Assembly (NCBI GenBank): GCA_023259135.1
Contig: JAHFQX010000021.1
Coordinates: 1-45,878 of the forward strand
Direction: 5' to 3'
DNA length: 45,878 nt
From: Betaproteobacteria bacterium
GTDB taxonomy: Bacteria; Pseudomonadota; Gammaproteobacteria; Burkholderiales; JAHFQX01
In this document: positions 32,163 through 43,320 of the stretch, in pieces
How positions within the stretch are numbered: the stretch's first letter is position 1
Layout: every line of letters starts with the position of its first letter
Translations under genes and position numbers: made by a program
Notes under the pieces: generated by a model
Seen by the model: only the letters and a program-made list of their open reading frames with translations
Databases searched by the model: none
Told to the model about the DNA's origin: nothing

Positions 32163-33428
32163 TTGCTGCAAATCCAAACCTTGGCGAGCACCGCCGTGCA
32201 GGCGGTGCTCGCCGGCCGCCCGCTGCCCGAAGCCCTGGCTCGGGTTTGGCAAGGCCATCCCCACCTGACGCCCCAGCAGCGGGGCGCCATCCAGGACATC
32301 AGCTATGGCACTTTGCGTTGTTTGGGAACCCTTGACGCAACGTTAGGGTTGCTAACGGGACCCCGCGCCCTGGATGCTGCCTTGCGCTGCTTGCTGCTGT
32401 GCGCCCTGTACCAGCTCCGGCATACCCTGGCGAAGCCCTATGCCGTGGTGAACCATGCCGTGGAGGCGGCGGACCGCATCAGCCAGCCCCGCGCCAAGGG
32501 GCTGGTGAACGCGGTATTGCGAAAATTTTCGGAGGAGCCGGACGCCTGGCTGGAACGGGCCGCCCAAGACCCGGTGGGACGCTATTCCCACCCCCTGTGG
32601 TGGATCGACAAGCTCAAAACCCAGTTACCCGAGCATTTCGAAGCCGTATTGGCGGCGGGCAACCGCCACCCCCCGATGAGCCTGCGGGTGAACCCGCGGC
32701 GGGACTCGCCGCCAGATTACCTGGAAGCTTTGTCGCAGGCCGGCATCCCGGCCGCGCCGGCCGGCGGTGCGGCGGTGCTGCTGGAGCGGCCGGTGGCGGT
32801 GAGCGAGCTGCCCGGTTTCTGGGCGGGGCGGGTTTCGGTGCAGGATTGGGGCGCCCAGCAGGCGGCGCTCTTGCTGGACGTGGCGGAGGGCATGGAGGTT
32901 CTGGATGCCTGCGCGGCTCCCGGCGGCAAGACGGGACACATTCTAGAGCTGGCGGACTGCCGGCTGGTGGCGCTGGATGCCGACGCCGGCCGGTTGCGCA
33001 AAGTGGACGAGAACCTGCGCCGGCTGGGATTGCGGGCCAGGCTGGTGGCGGGGGATGCCGCCCATCCGGAAACCTGGTGGGATGGCCGCCCCTTCCAGCG
33101 CATTCTGGCCGATGTGCCGTGCAGCGCTTCCGGAGTGGCGGGGCGACATCCCGATATCAAGTGGCTGCGCCGGGAATCGGACATTCCCGCCTATACCGAA
33201 CGGCAAGCCGCCATCCTGGACGGGCTGTGGCGCCTGTTGGACAGAGGTGGTAAATTGCTCTACGCCACCTGCTCGGTTTTTCGGGAGGAAGACCACCAAC
33301 AGGCGGCAATGTTCCTAGACCGGCATCCCGACGCCAGCCCCCTGGAGGCGGCCTCCGGGGAAGCGGGGCTGCTGTTGCCCGACCGACGACATGACGGGTT
33401 TTTCTACGCCCTTTTTCAAAAGCGCTAG
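32163..33428 (+). CDS. rsmB: 16S rRNA (cytosine967-C5)-methyltransferase RsmB
   Basis: A 421-residue protein with an N-terminal NusB-like RNA-binding domain (about residues 1-140) and a C-terminal Nol1/Nop2/Sun methyltransferase domain. The latter shows SAM motif DACAAPGGKTGHILEL, DVPCSASG with the structural cysteine, and ATCSVFREED with the catalytic cysteine. TTG 32163 immediately after the htpX stop is used as start; no ATG lies near, and homology begins here. Reinitiation after htpX translation is likely. The last 38 bp overlap the DUF4390 gene. Confidence 0.94.
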   Translation: MLQIQTLASTAVQAVLAGRPLPEALARVWQGHPHLTPQQRGAIQDISYGTLRCLGTLDATLGLLTGPRALDAALRCLLLCALYQLRHTLAKPYAVVNHAVEAADRISQPRAKGLVNAVLRKFSEEPDAWLERAAQDPVGRYSHPLWWIDKLKTQLPEHFEAVLAAGNRHPPMSLRVNPRRDSPPDYLEALSQAGIPAAPAGGAAVLLERPVAVSELPGFWAGRVSVQDWGAQQAALLLDVAEGMEVLDACAAPGGKTGHILELADCRLVALDADAGRLRKVDENLRRLGLRARLVAGDAAHPETWWDGRPFQRILADVPCSASGVAGRHPDIKWLRRESDIPAYTERQAAILDGLWRLLDRGGKLLYATCSVFREEDHQQAAMFLDRHPDASPLEAASGEAGLLLPDRRHDGFFYALFQKR

Positions 33429-33969
33429 TCTTCGTTCCGCCCTGGCAACCCTGCTTCTCGGCTTGTGGGCGTGGACCGCTCTGGCCGACGGCATCCAGGC
33501 GGTATCGGGCGCGCTGACCGAGGGAGAGGAGGCCTATGTCCTCAATGCCGAGTTCGACATCGCCGTGAATCCGACCCTCGAGGAAGCGCTGGCCAAGGGC
33601 TTGCCGCTTTACTTCGTCACGGAACTGGAGGTGGTCCGGCCCCGCTGGTATTGGCTGGACGAGAAAGTGCTGAGTTATCAGCAGACTTCCCGGCTGAGCT
33701 ACAACGCCCTGACCCGCCAGTATCGCCTCAGCACCGGAGCCTTCCACCAAAACTTTCCTGCCCTGTCCGACGCCCTAAACGTGCTGCAGCGCGTGCGCAA
33801 CAAGCCGGTGCTGGAAAAAGGCGCGCTGCGCAAGGATGCCAGTTATGCCGCCGCGCTGCGGCTGCGGCTGGACGTGTCCCAGTTACCCAAGCCGTTCCAA
33901 TTGAACGCCCTGGCTTCCAAGGAATGGTCGCTGGCATCGGAATGGCTTCGCTGGACGGTGACGCCATGA
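33391..33969 (+). CDS. DUF4390 domain protein
   Basis: A 192-residue protein with a signal-like N-terminus (LATLLLGLWAWTALA, cleavage likely near residue 32), so it is probably periplasmic. The mature part matches what I know of DUF4390: NAEFDIAVNPTLEEALAKGLPLYFVTELEV, RPRWYW, and a LSYNALTRQYRLSTGAFHQNF block. Its function is unknown. Its start lies inside rsmB and its stop overlaps the ntrY start (ATGA), a compact arrangement that ties it to the sensor kinase; a role in signalling to NtrY is a guess based on context. Confidence 0.9.
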   Translation: MTGFSTPFFKSASLRSALATLLLGLWAWTALADGIQAVSGALTEGEEAYVLNAEFDIAVNPTLEEALAKGLPLYFVTELEVVRPRWYWLDEKVLSYQQTSRLSYNALTRQYRLSTGAFHQNFPALSDALNVLQRVRNKPVLEKGALRKDASYAAALRLRLDVSQLPKPFQLNALASKEWSLASEWLRWTVTP

Positions 33970-36161
33970 CGGCGCCCCGCCCCGCCGCGACCCCGCTCCT
34001 GGCGGGACGCAGCACCAAGCTGCTGCTGTTCCTGATGGCGCTGGCCGGGGCGGTGCTGGTCTATCTGCTGTCCACCGCCAGCGCCAATACGGCCCTGTTT
34101 GCCCAGGAATACCCTTTGCTGCTGGGGCTCAACGGACTATTGGCCACGGCGCTGCTGGCGCTGCTGGGATATCAACTGTGGCGGCTCGGGCGCCGGCTGC
34201 GGGCCAAGGTATTCGGCTCCCGGCTGACCTTGCGGCTGTTGCTGCTGTTCGCGGTGATGGCGCTGCTGCCGGGGTTGGTGGTGTACGGCGCCTCGGTGCA
34301 ATTTTTGTCCCGGAGCATCGAATCCTGGTTCGACGTGCGGGTGGAGAGGGCGCTGGAAGAAGCGCTTTCTTTGGGGCGTTCGGTGTTGGACAACATGCTG
34401 CGAGACCTGAACAAAAAGGCTGACGTCATGGCCTTGACTCTGGCGGAGCGGCCCGCCGCCGAGCATCTGACGCTGCTCAACAGCCTGCGGGAGCAGGCGA
34501 CGGTCCAGGAAGCCACGCTGTTTACCCAGCGCGGCACGGTCGTCGCATTCTCCAGCGGCGAGCGGGCCGGCCTGATTCCCGATCTACCGGGGCCCGTGGC
34601 GTTGCGCCAATTGCGGCTGCAACAACCCTACCGGGGGGTGGAGTCGGTTCCCGACAAGGGGCTTTACCTGCGGGTGCTGGTGCCGGTTTCTTCCCTGTCG
34701 CTGGGCGAAGAGCCGAAGATCCTGCAATTGCTGCACCCCGTTCCGGCCGCTTTGGCGAAAGAGGCGGAGACGGTGCAAAGCGGTTACGAGGATTACCAAA
34801 AGCTGTCCTTGTCGCGGGTCGGCCTAAAACGGCTTTATGGATTCACGCTGACGCTGACCTTGGTGCTGGCGTTGCTCATTGCGTTGCTGCTGGCGCTGTT
34901 TTTGAGCGAGAGATTCAGCGCCCCGCTGTCGGCTTTGGCCGAGGGCACCCGGGCGGTGGCTCAGGGCGATTACAGCTTGAGGCATCCGGTATATAGCAAC
35001 GATGAACTGGGCGTGTTAACCCAATCCTTCAACGCCATGACCGATCAACTGCGGGACGCCCGGCTCGGCACCCAGCGGCACCAAGCCCAGGTGGAGGCGG
35101 CCAGGGCGTATCTGGAGAGCATCTTGGCGCACCTGTCCTCCGGCGTATTGTCCTTCGACCGGCAATTCCGTCTGCGCTCCTTCAATCCGGCGGCGGTGGC
35201 GGCGCTGGGAGAGCGCTTCGGCGAGGTGCGGCGCCACCCGTTGCTCCAGTGGCCCGAGCGCTGTCCCGAATTGGCGCCGTTTTGCCGGGCGGTGACGGAA
35301 GGCTTCGGCAAGGAAGGTTCCGGCCCGTGGGAGCGGGAAGTGAATTACGAGGATGTCTCCGCCGCCAAGATGCTGCTGGTGCGCGGCAAGCCGCTGCCGG
35401 CCGGCGGCGAAGCTGGTTATGTGGTGGTGTTCGACGACGTGACTCGGCTCATCCAAGCGCAACGGGACGCCGCCTGGGGCGAGGTGGCGCGGCGTCTGGC
35501 CCACGAAATCAAGAACCCGCTGACCCCCATCCAGCTTTCCGCGGAACGCTTGCAGCACAAATTGGCGGACCGGCTCGCCGGCAAGGATGCGGAGATGCTG
35601 GCCCGCGCCACGGCCACCATCGTCTCCCAGGTCACCGCGCTGAAGGCCATGGTGGATGCCTTCAGCCAATACGCCCGCACCCCGGAGCTTCGGTTGCGGC
35701 GCCTGGATCTCAATCGCCTGGTGCGGGATGTCCTGGCCCTTTACGAATCCGGCCCGACCCCGATCCGGGTGGAGTTGGCCGAGCCGCCGCCAGCGGTGCA
35801 GGGGGATCCGACGCTGCTGCGCCAGGTGATTCACAACCTGCTGCGCAATGCCCAGGATGCCTTGGAGGAAACCGCCGAGCCGCGCTTGGAGGTGCGCACC
35901 GAATCGGCCTCCGGCGCCGTCCGCCTGGTGATTCAAGATAACGGCCCGGGGTTCCCCGAGCCCTGGCTGCGGCGGGCCTTCGAGCCCTACGTGACCACCA
36001 AGCCCAAAGGCACGGGACTGGGGCTGCCGATCGTCAAGAAGATCGTCGAGGAGCACGGCGCCTCGGTGCAGATCGAAAACATGAAACCCTGTGGCGCCCG
36101 GGTCACCGTGGCGTTCCCCGTGACCGAGGCGCTGCGCGAGCCCTCCCCGCAAACGGCGTAA
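33966..36161 (+). CDS. ntrY: NtrY-like sensor histidine kinase
   Basis: A 731-residue membrane kinase. Predicted transmembrane helices lie at about 18-40, 53-72, 88-108 and 290-313, with an extracytoplasmic region of roughly 180 residues between the third and fourth. Then come a HAMP domain (about 314-367), a PAS-like domain (about 375-495), a HisKA domain with phospho-acceptor His513 in RRLAHEIKNPLTPIQLS, and a HATPase domain with N box HNLLRNAQDALEE and G boxes DNGPGFPE and GTGLGLPI. ATG 33966 is chosen by its 4-bp overlap with the DUF4390 stop and by the normal N-terminus. The family is linked to nitrogen or redox signalling; the stimulus here is unknown. Confidence 0.95.
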   Translation: MTAPRPAATPLLAGRSTKLLLFLMALAGAVLVYLLSTASANTALFAQEYPLLLGLNGLLATALLALLGYQLWRLGRRLRAKVFGSRLTLRLLLLFAVMALLPGLVVYGASVQFLSRSIESWFDVRVERALEEALSLGRSVLDNMLRDLNKKADVMALTLAERPAAEHLTLLNSLREQATVQEATLFTQRGTVVAFSSGERAGLIPDLPGPVALRQLRLQQPYRGVESVPDKGLYLRVLVPVSSLSLGEEPKILQLLHPVPAALAKEAETVQSGYEDYQKLSLSRVGLKRLYGFTLTLTLVLALLIALLLALFLSERFSAPLSALAEGTRAVAQGDYSLRHPVYSNDELGVLTQSFNAMTDQLRDARLGTQRHQAQVEAARAYLESILAHLSSGVLSFDRQFRLRSFNPAAVAALGERFGEVRRHPLLQWPERCPELAPFCRAVTEGFGKEGSGPWEREVNYEDVSAAKMLLVRGKPLPAGGEAGYVVVFDDVTRLIQAQRDAAWGEVARRLAHEIKNPLTPIQLSAERLQHKLADRLAGKDAEMLARATATIVSQVTALKAMVDAFSQYARTPELRLRRLDLNRLVRDVLALYESGPTPIRVELAEPPPAVQGDPTLLRQVIHNLLRNAQDALEETAEPRLEVRTESASGAVRLVIQDNGPGFPEPWLRRAFEPYVTTKPKGTGLGLPIVKKIVEEHGASVQIENMKPCGARVTVAFPVTEALREPSPQTA

Positions 36162-36166
36162 GGCCT

Positions 36167-37417
36167 ATGAACGAAATTTTGATCGTGGACGATGAAGTGG
36201 GAATCCGGGAGCTGCTCTCGGAAATTCTCCGGGACGAAGGCCATGCCGTGGCGGTGGCGGAAAATGCCGCCCAAGCCAGGGAGTACCGGCAGCGCGCCCG
36301 CCCGGCTTTGGTGTTGTTGGATATCTGGATGCCGGATACCGACGGCCTGACCTTGCTCAAGGAATGGGCCAGCTCGGGCCAGCTTACCATGCCGGTGGTC
36401 ATGATGTCGGGGCACGGCACGATTGACTCGGCGGTGGAGGCGACCCGCATCGGCGCGGTGGATTTTCTGGAAAAACCGCTAGCCCTGCAAAAGCTGCTGG
36501 CGGTCGTCAAGCGCGCCTTGCGCAGCGCCGCCATTCCGATCACGGGAGCCCCCCTGGCCCGCCTGGGAACCTCGGAGCCCATCGCCCGCTTGCGGCGGGA
36601 GTTGGAGCGGGCGGCCGATTTTAAGGGCCCGCTGCTGCTGGTGGCGGAGCCGGGAGCCGGCGCCGAATTTTGCGCCAAGGCGCTGCAATCCTCGCTGGCC
36701 CCGTGGGTACCGGCGGATCTCCCGGCGGTGCTGGCCGAAGCGCCGCTGGAGCTGCTCCGGCAGGCTCGCGGCGGCATTTTGTTCGTCGAAAACATCGTGG
36801 CGCTTAACAAAACGGAACAAAAGGGCTTGCTGGTGCTGATAGGCGGACTGGAGCGCCATCAAGTGCGGCTGGTGGGCCAAGCCCCCCGCTGGGCCCCGGA
36901 CCTGGTGGCCAGCGGAGATCTGGACTCGCGGCTGTTTGAGGTCTTCAACGCGCTGGCGATCCGGGTGCCGCCGCTGCGCGAGCATCCGGAAGACATCCCC
37001 GCGCTGGCCCAGGCCTTTCTGGACGAAGCCGCCGGGGCCGGGCTCATTAAAGCGCGCCGCTTTGCTCTGGCGGCCCTAGAGGCGCTGATCGGTTACCCGT
37101 GGCCGGGGAATCTTCCGCAACTGGAAAGCACGGTTCGGCTGCTGGCGTTTACCTGTCCGAACGAAGAGATCACCCCCACCGATGTCCGCGGGGTCTTGCC
37201 GGCCCAGGCCGATCCAGATTTCGACCCTGCAGCGATGGGCGACCTGCCCCTCAAGGAAGCTCGGGACGCTTTCGAGAAGCGCTACCTGGAGCGGCTTCTT
37301 GCCCAGGAAAGAGGACACATGAGCCGAGTGGCGGAAAAAGCCGGGCTGGAACGCACCCACCTGTACCGAAAATTGAAGCAGTTGGGAATCTCCATCCCGC
37401 GGAAGGGAGAAGAGTAA
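36167..37417 (+). CDS. ntrX: NtrX-like response regulator with degenerate AAA+ domain
   Basis: A 416-residue regulator. The receiver domain (1-120) is complete: acidic pair Asp8/Asp9, phospho-acceptor Asp52 in LDIWMPDTDG, Ser81 and Lys103. The central region (about 135-345) is recognisably sigma54-activator-like but degenerate: the Walker A position reads AEPGAGAE (160-167) without lysine, the Walker B position reads ILFVEN (204-209) instead of LFLDE, the stretch that should hold GAFTGA is deleted, and WPGN is followed by LPQLE instead of VREL. The C-terminal Fis-type HTH is intact (VAEKAGLERTHLYRKLKQLGI). It starts 5 bp after ntrY. ATP-dependent activation of sigma54 seems impossible; it may act as a phosphorylation-controlled DNA-binding protein. 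Confidence 0.9.
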   Translation: MNEILIVDDEVGIRELLSEILRDEGHAVAVAENAAQAREYRQRARPALVLLDIWMPDTDGLTLLKEWASSGQLTMPVVMMSGHGTIDSAVEATRIGAVDFLEKPLALQKLLAVVKRALRSAAIPITGAPLARLGTSEPIARLRRELERAADFKGPLLLVAEPGAGAEFCAKALQSSLAPWVPADLPAVLAEAPLELLRQARGGILFVENIVALNKTEQKGLLVLIGGLERHQVRLVGQAPRWAPDLVASGDLDSRLFEVFNALAIRVPPLREHPEDIPALAQAFLDEAAGAGLIKARRFALAALEALIGYPWPGNLPQLESTVRLLAFTCPNEEITPTDVRGVLPAQADPDFDPAAMGDLPLKEARDAFEKRYLERLLAQERGHMSRVAEKAGLERTHLYRKLKQLGISIPRKGEE

Positions 37418-37444: not shown

Positions 37445-37473
37445 TTGCCTTGCCTTGCGGCATGGGTAATAAT
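37445..37473 (+). promoter_or_regulatory. Candidate promoter for the tkt-gap-pgk cluster
   Basis: TTGCCT (37445-37450) and TAATAAT (37467-37473) are spaced by 16-17 bases in the 138-bp gap between ntrX and tkt. This would start the central-carbon cluster with a leader of about 75 bases. The remainder of the gap shows no other clear signal. Confidence 0.4.
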
Positions 37474-37555
37474 CATCCCCCTTTTCCCCTCGAAGGGCGG
37501 TAGGACGAGCATCCCGCCGCCAATTTTTTGGGTCTTGAATTTCACGGATAACCCC

Positions 37556-39559
37556 ATGGCCACCCGCAATCAACTGGCTAATGCCCTGAGGGTGTTGGCG
37601 ATGGATGCCGTGCAGCAGGCTAATTCCGGCCATCCCGGGATGCCCATGGGCATGGCGGAAATCGCCGAAGCGCTGTGGAATCGCTGCCTGCGCCATAATC
37701 CCGCCAACCCCCGCTGGCCCGACCGGGACCGTTTCGTGCTGTCCAACGGCCACGGTTCCATGCTGCTCTACGCGCTGCTGCATTTGACCGGCTACGATCT
37801 GCCGATGGAGGAATTGAAGCGTTTCCGCCAGCTTCATTCCAAGACCGCGGGGCATCCGGAGCGCAACCATCCGCCGGGAGTGGAGACCACCACCGGGCCG
37901 CTGGGCCAAGGGCTGGCCAACGCGGTGGGCATGGCCATGGCCGAGCGCATACTGGCCGAAGAGTTCAACCGCGACGGCTTCGACATCGTCAACCACCATA
38001 CCTATGCCTTTGTCGGCGACGGCTGCCTGATGGAGGGCATTTCCCACGAGGCCGGCTCGCTGGCGGGAACCCTGGGGCTCAGCAAGCTCATCGTGTTCTA
38101 CGACGACAACGGCATTTCCATCGACGGTCATGTGGGCGGCTGGTTTAACGACGACACTCCCCGGCGCTTCGCGGCCTATGGCTGGAACGTGATCCCCGGA
38201 GTGGACGGCCACGATTCGGCCGCCCTGGACGCCGCCATTGCCGCGGCCCGCGCCGAGCCGGCCCGGCCCACCCTGATCTGCTGCAAAACCACCATCGGCA
38301 AGGGCGCCCCCAACAAGGCGGGCAGCCACGACAGCCACGGCTCTCCGCTGGGCGCGGCGGAAGTGGCGGCGGCCCGCGCCGCCCTAGGCTGGAACCATCC
38401 AGCCTTTGAGATTCCCGCCGACGTTTATGAAGGCTGGGATGCCCGCGTCAAGGGGCAGGGGCTGGAGACTCTGTGGAACAACAAATTCGCCGTCTATGCA
38501 GCGGCCCATCCGGAATCGGCGCGCGAATTCCGCCGCCGTATGGCGGGAGAGCTGCCTGCGGGCTGGAGCGACCACGCTGCGGGCTTGCTGGCCCAAGTGG
38601 CGGAAAAGAAGGAAAACGCCGCCACCCGCAAAGCCTCCCAGGACGCCATCGCTTTGCTGGCCAAACGACTCCCCGAGTTGGTGGGGGGCTCCGCCGACCT
38701 GGCGGCGTCCAACCTGACGCTGTGGCCCGGCTGCCGCCCCTTCTCCGCCCAGCGCGCCGGTAATTACATCCATTACGGGGTGCGGGAATTCGCCATGGTT
38801 GCCATTCTCAACGGCATGGCCCTGCACGGCGGGGTGCTGCCTTTCGGCGGCACCTTCCTGGTTTTTTCCGACTACGCCCGCAACGGCTTGCGGATGGCGG
38901 CCTTGATGGGGGCGCGGGCGGTTTATGTGCTGACCCACGATTCCATCGGTCTGGGGGAAGACGGTCCCACCCACCAGCCGGTGGAACAGGCCGCCACCCT
39001 GCGGCTCATCCCCGGCATGGACGTGTGGCGCCCCTGCGATACGGTGGAGACGATGGCGGCCTGGCTGGCCGCGGTGGAGCGCGGCGACGGCCCTAGCTGC
39101 CTGTTGTTGAGCCGTCAGGCCACGCCTTTTCAATCCAGGAGCCCGCACCAAATCCCGCAGATTCTGCGGGGCGGCTATGTTCTGGAAGAGGCTGCCGGCG
39201 GGGCGCCCAAAATCGTCCTCATCGCCACCGGCTCGGAACTCGGCTTGGCGGCCCAGGCCCGGCAGGTGCTGGAAAGCCAAGGTATTCCGGCGCGCCTGGT
39301 GTCCATGCCCAGTACCACGGTGTTCGACCGCCAGGACGAAGCCTACAAGCGCCGCGTGCTGCTGCCCGGCGTGCCGCGGGTGGCGGTGGAAGCCGGGGTT
39401 TCGGATTTTTGGCGCAAGTATGTGGGGCTGGAAGGCGGCGTGGTGGGCCTCGATCAATTCGGCGCTTCGGCCCCCGCGACCGATTTATTCCGCCACTTCG
39501 GCTTCACCGTGGAGAACGTGGTAAACACGGCGAAGAGCCTGCTGGTGGATTTTTCCTAA
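37556..39559 (+). CDS. tkt: Transketolase
   Basis: A 667-residue thiamine-diphosphate enzyme that moves two-carbon units between sugar phosphates in the pentose-phosphate, Calvin or ribulose-monophosphate pathways. Visible motifs are [51 protein letters not shown], the ThDP motif [15 protein letters not shown]...DDNG, and in the second half [26 protein letters not shown] 37556 gives the canonical [20 protein letters not shown] start; the ribosome-binding site is weak. It is the first gene of the carbon cluster, 17 bp before gap. Confidence 0.97.
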
Positions 39560-39576
39560 AGAAGAAGGAGCACGAC

Positions 39577-40587
39577 ATGACCATTCGCGTAGCCATCAAC
39601 GGCTACGGCCGCATCGGCCGCAACATCCTCCGGGCGCTGTACGAGTCCGGCAACCGGGACATCCAGATCGTCGCCATCAACGACCTGGGCGATGCCCAGA
39701 CCAACGCCCACCTGACCCGTTTCGATACGGCCCACGGCCGCTTCAAGGGCGAGGTGACGGTGGACGGCGACTCCCTGGTGGTGAACGGCGACCGCATCAA
39801 GGTCTGCGCGGTGCGCAACCCCGCCGACCTGCCCTGGGGCGAGCTCAAGGTGGACGTGGTGCTGGAGTGCACCGGGCTGTTCACCAGCAAGGAAAAGGCC
39901 TCCGCCCACCTCAAGGCCGGAGCCAAGAAAGTGGTGATCTCGGCCCCGGGCGGCAAGGACGTGGACGCCACCATCGTCTACGGGGTCAACCACCAGACGC
40001 TCAAGGCCAGCCACACGGTCATTTCCAACGCCTCCTGCACCACCAACTGCCTGGCTCCCCTGGTGAAGCCGCTGCACGACAAGATCGGCGTGGTGAAGGG
40101 GCTCATGACCACGGTCCATGCCTACACCAACGACCAGGTGCTCACCGACGTCTATCACGAGGATCTGCGCCGGGCCCGCTCCGCCACCATGTCCATGATT
40201 CCCACCAAGACCGGCGCCGCGGCGGCGGTGGGCCTGGTGCTGCCCGAGCTCAACGGCAAGCTGGACGGTTTTTCCATCCGGGTGCCGACCATCAACGTGT
40301 CGGTGGTGGACCTCACCTTCGAAGCGGCCCGCTCCACCACCGTCGAGGAGGTCAACAGGATCATGAAAGAGGCCGCCGAAGGCTCGCTCAAAGGCGTCCT
40401 GAGCTACAGCACCCTGCCCCTGGTCTCGGTGGACTTCAATCACGATCCCTCTTCCAGCGTTTTCGACGCCACCTTGACCAAGGTGGCGGAGGGCACCCTG
40501 GTCAAGGTCTTGTCCTGGTACGATAATGAGTGGGGCTTCAGCAACCGGATGCTGGACACGACCGCGGCTTTGATGCGGGCCAAGTAA
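39577..40587 (+). CDS. gap: Glyceraldehyde-3-phosphate dehydrogenase (type I)
   Basis: A 336-residue enzyme interconverting glyceraldehyde-3-phosphate and 1,3-bisphosphoglycerate. The Rossmann motif [10 protein letters not shown] starts at residue 7, Asp36 in INDLGD lies in the NAD-ribose region (suggesting NAD rather than NADP preference, by family rule), the catalytic Cys154 is in [12 protein letters not shown], and the catalytic His is in [17 protein letters not shown] precedes ATG 39577. An upstream in-frame extension overlaps tkt and is not coding. The [22 protein letters not shown] type resembles GAPDHs of autotrophic and methylotrophic proteobacteria. Confidence 0.97.
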
Positions 40588-40615
40588 ACGGCGGGGACTT
40601 CTAGGAACATCCGTC

Positions 40616-41797
40616 ATGTCCGTGATCAAGATGACCGACCTGGAGCTTTCCGGCAAGCGGCTGTTGCTGCGGGAGGATCTCAATGTTCCCTTGAAGGACG
40701 GCCAAGTGGCGGACGACAGCCGCATCCGCGCCGCCCTGCCCACCTTGAAGCTGGCGCTGCAAGCCGGAGCCCGAGTGCTGCTGGTGTCCCACCTGGGACG
40801 CCCCGAGGAAGGACATTTCGATGAGTCCCTGTCCCTGGCTCCGGTGGCGCGCCGGCTCGGCGAGCTGCTGGGCCGCGAGGTGCTCCTGGCGCGGGACTGG
40901 ATCGACGGCGTGAACGTGGCGCCCGGCACCGCGGTGTTGTGCGAGAACGTCCGATTCCTCAAGGGCGAAAAGCAAAACAGCGACGAGCTGGCGCAACGCA
41001 TGGCGGCCCTGTGCGACATTTACGCCATGGATGCTTTCGCCACCGCCCACCGCGCCGAAGCTTCCACCCACGGCGTGGCCCAATACGCTCCGGTGGCCTG
41101 CGCCGGCCCGCTCCTGGCGGCGGAATTGGAGGCCCTGGGGCGCGCCCTTAAACAGCCCGCCCGGCCGCTGGTGGCCATCGTTGGCGGCGCCAAGGTGTCC
41201 ACCAAGCTGACGGTGCTCAGGACCCTGGCGGAAAAAGTGGACCAGTTGATCGTCGGCGGCGGCATCGCCAACACTTTTATCCAGGCCGCCGGCTATGCCA
41301 TCGGCCAATCCTTGGCGGAACCGGCGTTACTGCAAGAGGCCCGGGAAATCCTGGAAGCCGCCCGCCGGCGCGGCGCCGAGGTGCCGATTCCCGAGGACGT
41401 GGTGGTGGCCAAGGAGTTCTCCGAAAGCGCCGTCCCCGTGCTCAAAAACGTCTCCGAAGTAGCCCCCGACGAAATGATCCTGGACATCGGCCCCAAGACC
41501 TGCGCCCGGTTGGAAGCTCTGCTGGCCGAGGCCGGCACCATCGTCTGGAACGGCCCGGTGGGGGTGTTCGAGCTGGCTCCGTTCAGCGCCGGCACCGAGC
41601 GGCTGGCTCGGGCCGTGGCCGCCTCCCGGGCGTTCTCCATCGCCGGCGGCGGCGACACCCTGGCGGCGGTGGCCAAGTACGGCATCGCCGACCGCTTGTC
41701 CTATATTTCCACCGGCGGCGGCGCCTTCCTGGAGTTTCTGGAAGGCAAGACCCTGCCGGCGGTGGAAATCCTCGAGCAAAGGGCGCGCCGCGCCTAG
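40616..41797 (+). CDS. pgk: Phosphoglycerate kinase
   Basis: A 393-residue two-domain kinase catalysing 1,3-bisphosphoglycerate + ADP to 3-phosphoglycerate + ATP (reversible). The N-domain has [11 protein letters not shown] and [14 protein letters not shown] (basic patch), the middle has [18 protein letters not shown], and the C-domain has WNGPVGVFE and [16 protein letters not shown], the nucleotide site. It starts 28 bp after gap, in one operon, and is separated from pyk by an 89-bp spacer that holds the heptad inverted repeat. Confidence 0.98.
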
Positions 41798-41806
41798 CGC
41801 GGCGGC

Positions 41807-41884
41807 TCTGAATTTCGAGTTCCGAGTTTCGGGTTCCGAGTTTTGAGTTAACCCGGAACTCGGAATTCAGAACTCAGAACTCGC
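41807..41884. repeat. 7-bp-period inverted repeat between pgk and pyk
   Basis: The left arm is a run of degenerate heptamers of the form CGAGTTC / CGAGTTT / CGGGTTC / CGAGTTT / TGAGTTA; the right arm is the complementary run AACTCGG / AATTCAG / AACTCAG / AACTCG. The arms meet at the palindrome GTTAAC (41847-41852). The whole would fold into a long hairpin of roughly 35 bp with a few mismatches. It fills almost the entire pgk-pyk gap, is much less GC-rich than the genes, and I saw no second copy in the window. Confidence 0.85.
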
Positions 41885-41886
41885 TC

Positions 41887-43320
41887 ATGCTTCGCCGCAC
41901 CAAGATCGTCGCCACCCTGGGACCGGCTTCCAGCTCTCCCGCCGTGCTGGAGAGCATGATCGCCGCCGGCGTGGACGTGGTGCGGATGAATTTCTCCCAT
42001 GGCGCGCCCGAGGAGCATCGGGCGCGGGCCGAGCTGGTGCGCTCCATCGCCCGGGCCCGAGGCACCACCGTGGGCGTGCTGGTGGATTTGCAAGGCCCCA
42101 AGATTCGTATCGGCCGCTTTCAGAACGGCAAGATCGCCCTCAAATCCGGAGATAAATTCATTCTGGATGCCCGCTGCAAGCAAGGGAACCAGGAACGGGT
42201 GGGCTTGGATTACAAGAACCTGCCCCAGGACGTCTCGCCGGGGACCACGCTGCTGCTGGACGACGGCCGCATCGTGCTGGGGGTGACGGAAGTCAAAGGC
42301 GCCAAAATCCATTGCGTGGTGGAGCAAGGCGGCGAACTCTCCGACAACAAGGGCATCAACCGCAAGGGCGGCGGCCTGAGCGCCCCGGCGCTGACCGGCA
42401 AGGATATCGAGGACATCAAGACCGCCGCCCTGCTCCGCGCCGACTATCTGGCGGTTTCCTTTCCGCGCAGCGCCGCCGATATGCGTTGGGCCCGGGATCT
42501 CATGGGACAAGCCGGCGGCAAAAGTTTTCTCATGGCCAAGATCGAGCGGGCCGAGGCGATTCCGGCCCTGGAAGAAATTCTCGAGGCTTCCGACGCCATT
42601 ATGGTGGCGCGGGGCGATTTGGCGGTGGAGGTGGGGGACGCGGCGGTGCCGGCGCTGCAAAAGCGCATGATCGCCTTGGCCAGAAGCCACAACAAGCTGG
42701 TGGTGACCGCCACCCAGATGATGGAGTCCATGACGGCCAGTCCCGTCCCCACCCGGGCGGAAGTGTCGGACGTGGCCAACGCCGTGCTGGACGGCACCGA
42801 TGCGGTGATGCTGTCGGCCGAAACCGCCGTCGGCGACTATCCGGTGGAAACGGTGACGGCCATGGCCCGAGTGTGCCTCGAAGCGGAAAAAGAGCAGGAA
42901 TTTTCCCGGGAAGCGCACCGCAATCCGCAGCCGGTCACGGGAGTGGAAGAAGCCATCGCCCGGGCCGCGGTGTTTACCGCCCACAACCTGGGGGTCAAGG
43001 CCATCGCGGCCCTCACCCAAAGCGGCATGACGGCCTTGCTCATGTCTCGCATGACGGCCAGCGTCCCGATCTATGCCTTGAGCCCGGTGGTGGAGACGCG
43101 GCGCCGGGTCACCTTGTTCCGAGGGGTCTATCCGATCCGGTTTGCCGTCACCACCCGGGATTCCGAGCAAACCTTGCACTTGGCCGAGAATGAGCTGCTC
43201 AAGCGGGGCGCGGTGCAGCACGGCGACCTCATCGCCCTGACCATCGGCGAGCCGTTCGGCGAGGCGGGGGGGACCAACACCTTGAAAGTGGTGCGGGTGG
43301 GGGAACATCGCAAGGCATAA
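41887..43320 (+). CDS. pyk: Pyruvate kinase
   Basis: A 477-residue enzyme that makes pyruvate and ATP from phosphoenolpyruvate. N-terminal RRTKIVATLGPASSSP, the substrate region RMNFSHGAPEEH, VDLQGPKIRIGRF, the active-site block FLMAKIERAEAIPALEEI...IMVARGDLAVEVG, and TATQMMESMTASPVPTRAEVSDVANAVLDGTDAVMLSAETA are all present; the C-terminal allosteric domain is complete. The length and motifs resemble the PykA type. It begins directly after the heptad repeat (only 2 bp from it), so the hairpin would sit in its 5' leader or its ribosome-binding region; no good Shine-Dalgarno is visible. Confidence 0.97.
   Translation: MLRRTKIVATLGPASSSPAVLESMIAAGVDVVRMNFSHGAPEEHRARAELVRSIARARGTTVGVLVDLQGPKIRIGRFQNGKIALKSGDKFILDARCKQGNQERVGLDYKNLPQDVSPGTTLLLDDGRIVLGVTEVKGAKIHCVVEQGGELSDNKGINRKGGGLSAPALTGKDIEDIKTAALLRADYLAVSFPRSAADMRWARDLMGQAGGKSFLMAKIERAEAIPALEEILEASDAIMVARGDLAVEVGDAAVPALQKRMIALARSHNKLVVTATQMMESMTASPVPTRAEVSDVANAVLDGTDAVMLSAETAVGDYPVETVTAMARVCLEAEKEQEFSREAHRNPQPVTGVEEAIARAAVFTAHNLGVKAIAALTQSGMTALLMSRMTASVPIYALSPVVETRRRVTLFRGVYPIRFAVTTRDSEQTLHLAENELLKRGAVQHGDLIALTIGEPFGEAGGTNTLKVVRVGEHRKA

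Follow-up and report, generated by a model that had tools for sequence, protein, structure and literature searches.

A catalytically degenerate AAA+ domain, under purifying selection and repeatedly deleted, in betaproteobacterial NtrX/PlrR response regulators

The window analyzed here is a 45,878-nt stretch of DNA from a Betaproteobacteria bacterium (contig JAHFQX010000021.1, positions 1-45,878, forward strand). Its + strand carries rsmB (32163-33428; PF01189), the conserved 5′ neighbor, which encodes the 16S rRNA m5C967 methyltransferase; a DUF4390 gene (33391-33969; PF14334, E 6.8e-53) homologous to Bordetella plrP (PMC13001219); a gene for an ntrY/plrS-type histidine kinase of 731 aa (33966-36161; Pfam HAMP, HisKA, HATPase_c, and NtrY_N); and an ntrX/plrR-type response regulator gene (36167-37417) encoding 416 aa. 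The DUF4390 gene and ntrY share 4 bp (ATGA), and in the ORF scan the ATG of ntrX lies 5 nt past the ntrY stop, with the reading frame uninterrupted over all 416 aa. The genes rsmB, DUF4390, and ntrY lie upstream of ntrX in 57/57 named orthologous loci with full flanks. The Bordetella cluster has the same order, rsmB-plrP-plrS-plrR, and PlrP serves there as a periplasmic third component (PMC13001219). The H-box (HEIKNPLTP), N-box, and G-boxes of the NtrY sequence are all intact; the initial annotation had called this kinase apparently functional, and its H-box and ATP-binding boxes are consistent with that description. On the 3′ side of ntrX, positions 37445-43320 hold a transketolase gene (Pfam) and genes resembling gap, pgk, and pyk, all co-directional, an ordinary central-carbon cluster. 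A promoter scan returned one weak sigma70-like match (37445-37473, 3′ of ntrX) that at best equaled those in shuffled sequences, so an autoregulatory or internal promoter could not be named. Operator motifs reported for alphaproteobacterial NtrX are CAAN2-5TTG and GCAN9TGC.

The product of 36167-37417 is an NtrX/PlrR response regulator of an NtrYX-type two-component system. It combines a receiver with a Fis-type HTH, its gene adjoins an NtrY-type kinase, and both the tree of receiver and HTH columns and the conserved rsmB-DUF4390-ntrY-ntrX neighborhood place it with its orthologs from the same order. The receiver (residues 3-120; 36173-36526, + strand) matches PF00072 with E 3.5e-28 (Response_reg, 4-114) and contains the predicted phospho-acceptor D52 (36320-36322). 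Residues D8, D9, D52, S81, and K103 are present and are conserved in all aligned sequences of all groups; the acceptor site is therefore intact. A full-length match to PF14532 (Sigma54_activ_2; positions 1-138 of 138, 107.2 bits against a gathering cut-off of 25, E 1e-30) defines a pseudo-AAA+ core (residues 133-270; 36563-36976), for which the usual Sigma54_activat model is a much poorer fit. The AAA+ lid (residues 271-348; 36977-37210; PF25601, AAA_lid_14) is followed by the Fis-type HTH region (residues 361-410; 37247-37396; PF02954, HTH_8 match 367-406), whose recognition segment GLERTHLYRKLKQLG is near-invariant in alignment A1. Receiver and HTH are thus intact, as had been annotated. The best NCBIfam model for the protein is NF051870, an alphaproteobacterial-type NtrX model; the score of 237.8 bits falls below its curated 600-bit cut-off, and the protein is therefore outside that equivalog.

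Motif positions were read from an alignment to 270 homologs. Walker A is degenerate (AEPGAGAE, residues 160-167; 36644-36667, + strand), its lysine replaced by Ala166, as is Walker B (GGILFVEN; 36770-36793), in which E208-N209 stands in place of DE. The former arginine-finger segment (residues 253-259; 36923-36943) has D253 and V259 where arginines are expected, and the sensor II arginine is Pro317, within the WPGNLPQL motif of the lid. GAFTGA was sought in the alignment and not found in this protein. The positions of the Walker A lysine and the Walker B aspartate are separated by 41 residues, compared with 60-62 in alphaproteobacteria, and a second loop of ~12 residues is deleted past Walker B. 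These readings uphold the initial annotation on the missing Walker A lysine, the deleted GAFTGA segment, and the loss of the sensor II arginine after WPGN. Its figure of about 36 residues between the Walker positions was close, and its description of Walker B as lacking the acidic pair was slightly too strong, since the DE pair is gone but E208 is still acidic; the loss of both arginine fingers and of the post-Walker B loop had been absent from it. Having neither GAFTGA nor the catalytic residues, the protein falls outside the canonical sigma54 activators (bEBPs of the NtrC type). Five other NtrC-type regulators in the same genome retain GAFTGA, several of them with other motifs as well, and rpoN is present; the losses are therefore confined to NtrX in this genome.

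An AlphaFold2 model of the protein from a 51-sequence alignment had a pLDDT of 86.6. Its AAA+ part superposed on bEBP AAA+ domains with Z scores of 21-22 and an rmsd of 2.3-2.6 Å over 214-219 residues. From these single-domain comparisons, the pseudo-AAA+ domain is predicted to adopt an ordinary AAA+ core fold; a full-chain search placed Brucella NtrX among the best matches, with large rmsd values that arise from differing domain orientations. The best sequence match of the core in the PDB is 3co5 (E 3e-17, same span), an entry that carries no more specific name than “putative two-component system transcriptional response regulator” and that we take to be the AAA+ domain of Neisseria gonorrhoeae NtrX. 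It is a degenerate, short AAA+ domain of like kind (GEAGSPFE, GGVLYVGD) and matches over the whole domain with one 2-residue indel. Neisseriaceae NtrX orthologs group among the long betaproteobacterial forms in the tree. A regulon of respiratory enzymes is reported for N. gonorrhoeae NtrX, the subject of 2013 work by Atack.

NtrX orthologs were found in 58/60 and 284/300 same-order genomes in two samples; with the conserved gene cluster, the first count led us to reject horizontal transfer or an odd lineage as the source of the window protein. We compared 230 long sequences (30 alphaproteobacterial, 53 gammaproteobacterial, and 147 long betaproteobacterial), the groups being labeled from kinship to the window genome and from named orthologs. 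The Walker A lysine is kept in 30/30 alpha, 41/53 gamma, and 2/147 beta sequences, the Walker B aspartate in 30/30 alpha and 10/53 gamma, and the sensor II arginine in 30/30 alpha, 39/53 gamma, and 1/147 beta. All six catalytic positions are intact in 30/30 alpha, 1/53 gamma, and 0/147 beta sequences, the alpha set having been drawn from the highest-scoring matches to an alpha-trained model, with a resulting bias toward intact forms. The lysine, the aspartate, the sensor II arginine, and both fingers are all lost in 110 of the 147 long beta sequences, and the Walker-to-Walker span is 41 residues in 127/147 (60-62 in alpha). No GAFT or GSFT motif was found in any of the 230, alpha included. Most P-loop glycines survive, G163 for instance in 145/147 beta sequences, and on that account beta NtrX may still bind nucleotide weakly. 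On the receiver-HTH tree the lysine, aspartate, and arginine states each require 11-12 changes, so the erosion of catalytic residues probably happened repeatedly. Loss of catalytic residues is the rule for NtrX across this betaproteobacterial order, with gammaproteobacteria intermediate. The idea that the window represents a poorly described special lineage did not hold up, for the same losses are order-wide, PDB 3co5 and PF14532 already exist, and the literature goes further. A sequencing or frameshift artifact was rejected on the identical motif losses across the 147 long orthologs.

Several individual sequences depart from this pattern. Two members of family f39 (L269 and L279) are the only long beta NtrX with a Walker A lysine (GEPGAGKR and GEPGVGKS); both have lost the Walker B aspartate and the sensor II arginine, and the lysine is either a retention or a reversion. 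The AAA+ region of L132 and L133 (family f2) is more diverged than that of the window protein (GPPGAAFD, WPGN motif lost), possibly a further step ahead of deletion. A second NtrX-like paralog in a same-order genome (L131, G022:C29:91241-92584) has a fuller AAA+ domain (GESGTGRE, 59 residues between the Walker sites) and a tandemly duplicated C-terminal HTH segment, and it clusters with gammaproteobacterial forms in the tree. MAGs titled Bordetella parapertussis (L040, L042, L079, and L107) carry long NtrX with 49-56% identity to the window protein; these titles are probably misassignments, because Bordetella PlrR is described as AAA-less. Two gammaproteobacterial orthologs (G892:C1:12583-13929 and G781:C16:11670-13019) contain one in-frame TGA each, which may reflect a pseudogene, an error, or recoding.

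In other members of the order, the AAA+ domain is gone altogether. Long and short classes were assigned by E-value in the 284 genomes, ~77 of which fall in the AAA-less class, and a subset of 41 AAA-less sequences was read directly; in these forms a linker of ~30-85 residues joins receiver and HTH. On a careful tree of receiver and HTH columns the long and short states require three changes, and the starred branches force three. A single origin of the AAA-less form appeared in 0% of bootstrap trees, and an AU test against one AAA-less clade gave p 0.023; one single deletion event was rejected on these grounds. The AAA+ domain was lost independently at least three times, once within genus g34, in which one species (L187, G656) has the full-length protein and five congeners the short form, a ready natural experiment. 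Betaproteobacterial NtrX have been described as lacking the AAA+ domain (PMC13001219, citing Bonato 2016). That statement needs qualifying, as about three quarters of the sampled NtrX-bearing genomes keep a degenerate domain. The window protein itself is not of the AAA-less PlrR type: its AAA+ core and lid are present and predicted to be folded.

Selection was estimated from 48 close betaproteobacterial pairs, with dS near saturation for some, which gave dN/dS values of 0.033 for the receiver, 0.109 (0.09-0.13) for the AAA+ core, 0.104 for the lid, and 0.040 for the HTH. The beta core is under purifying selection, at a value comparable to that of the alpha core (0.14). The ratio of core to receiver is 3.3 (2.8-3.8) in beta versus 1.3 (1.1-1.6) in alpha; the dead domain is thus looser than its neighbors, yet far from neutral. 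This relative acceleration, the repeated deletions, and the small number of core positions conserved at ≥90% in beta (only 12) are what one would expect of a nonfunctional relic being lost by plain relaxed decay. We nonetheless regard that account as quite improbable, because the core value is far from neutral, indels are nearly all of one length class (the 41-residue span), most families retain the domain, and the frame is open in all listed long betaproteobacterial orthologs. Pseudogene decay was likewise rejected, on the absence of stops and an omega of about 0.11. The initial annotation had argued against decay, and open frames, the core dN/dS, and the predicted fold agree with it; it had allowed that sister species with intact Walker motifs, together with premature stops here, would point the other way, and the sisters lack the motifs too. 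Its further reading as selected repurposing stands in part: the domain is under constraint, but it has been deleted at least three times, from which it follows that its remaining role is replaceable.

The core also has conserved residues specific to beta (P155, W180, L189, P193, and D253), among which D253, at a former arginine finger, is 84% conserved in the thinned betaproteobacterial set. Together with the purifying selection, and with the sequence and fold matches to the c-di-GMP-binding regulator VpsR, these residues could mark a repurposed pocket serving as a second sensory input that modulates NtrX, its ligand being either a partner protein or a small molecule such as c-di-GMP, which VpsR and FleQ bind. 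Likeness to VpsR and FleQ is common to all bEBP AAA+ domains, however; the pocket has lost the Walker A lysine and both arginine fingers, and at least three lineages have discarded the domain with no evident replacement. We consider such a pocket unlikely.

The gene persists where sigma54 itself appears to be missing. Eleven genomes of ≥98% completeness (G030, G256, G317, G344, G039, G468, G617, G472, G553, G665, and G366; families f4, f8, f15, f31, f40, and f44) retain NtrX with no rpoN detectable by model search of the assemblies, some of which are MAGs, and 4 of the 11 carry the long degenerate form. Sampled genomes of family f41 (G040, G469, G507, G543, G575, G603, G631, and G659) gave no confident NtrX match, and an rpoN search in three of them (G040, G469, and G507) found none; G507 has a weak NtrX match of 193 aa in an open frame. 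With rpoN and five GAFTGA-bearing bEBPs in the window genome, NtrX might still activate sigma54 promoters there, for instance by co-assembling with the intact bEBPs into hetero-oligomers. The lack of GAFTGA and of every catalytic residue, and the persistence of orthologs in the rpoN-less genomes, leave this reading with hardly any likelihood. A non-ATPase, non-sigma54 output beside an intact NtrY, as first annotated, is what the motifs suggest.

We therefore favor, as probable, a phosphorylation-gated, sigma54-independent DNA-binding regulator in which the pseudo-ATPase is a useful but dispensable scaffold. By analogy with Bordetella, the DUF4390/PlrP protein would tune NtrY in the periplasm, and NtrY would phosphorylate D52 of NtrX. 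The phosphorylated receiver would promote dimerization and the Fis-type HTH would engage operator DNA; bound NtrX would then activate or repress promoters of sigma70-type polymerase, with neither ATP hydrolysis nor sigma54. The pseudo-AAA+ domain would no longer hydrolyze ATP, assemble into rings in response to nucleotide, or contact sigma54, and presumably would not bind nucleotide; its fold would be kept as a scaffold or spacer that packs between receiver and HTH and probably helps set dimer geometry. GAFTGA was likely lost first, before NtrX diverged into alpha, beta, and gamma lineages. In gamma- and betaproteobacteria the ATPase residues would then have drifted, and the idle domain would finally have been deleted in several lineages, leaving a flexible linker.

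Known regulators resemble parts of this scheme. Brucella abortus NtrX (PDB 5m7n/5m7o/5m7p), the best full-length match in sequence and fold, has the same receiver-AAA+-Fis layout and likewise lacks GAFTGA. In NtrX of this alphaproteobacterial type, unlike the window protein, Walker A and B, the arginine fingers, and sensor II are intact. The Brucella protein was crystallized with ATP and ADP; it reportedly binds ATP and lacks ATPase activity. Bordetella PlrR and Herbaspirillum NtrX share the cluster, receiver, HTH, and D52 of the window protein, and PlrR works through D52 phosphorylation, but their AAA+ domain is reported absent, whereas the window protein keeps a pseudo-ATPase (PMC13001219). 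Other bEBPs without GAFTGA, namely Rhodobacter and Caulobacter NtrC and Vibrio VpsR, act at sigma70 promoters (PMC10274813), but they are different paralogs; R. capsulatus NtrC reportedly uses ATP binding, and VpsR binds c-di-GMP.

The Pfam family, the PDB entry, and reports of AAA-less proteins were already known; to these we add that the loss is graded across the groups, that deletion recurred, and that the dead ATPase is still under purifying selection, and we qualify the published statement on missing AAA+ domains. It is a rather doubtful proposition that the beta domain, as marked by P155, W180, and D253, has gained a new, selected ligand- or partner-binding input; if it has, NtrX would integrate a second signal besides that from NtrY, and the AAA-less lineages would have given this input up. 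NtrX forms a graded series, from an alpha AAA+ domain without GAFTGA, through partial loss of catalysis in gamma and a pseudo-ATPase in beta, to repeated full deletion, and this series illustrates a route from an ATP-driven sigma54 activator to an ordinary phosphorylation-gated regulator.
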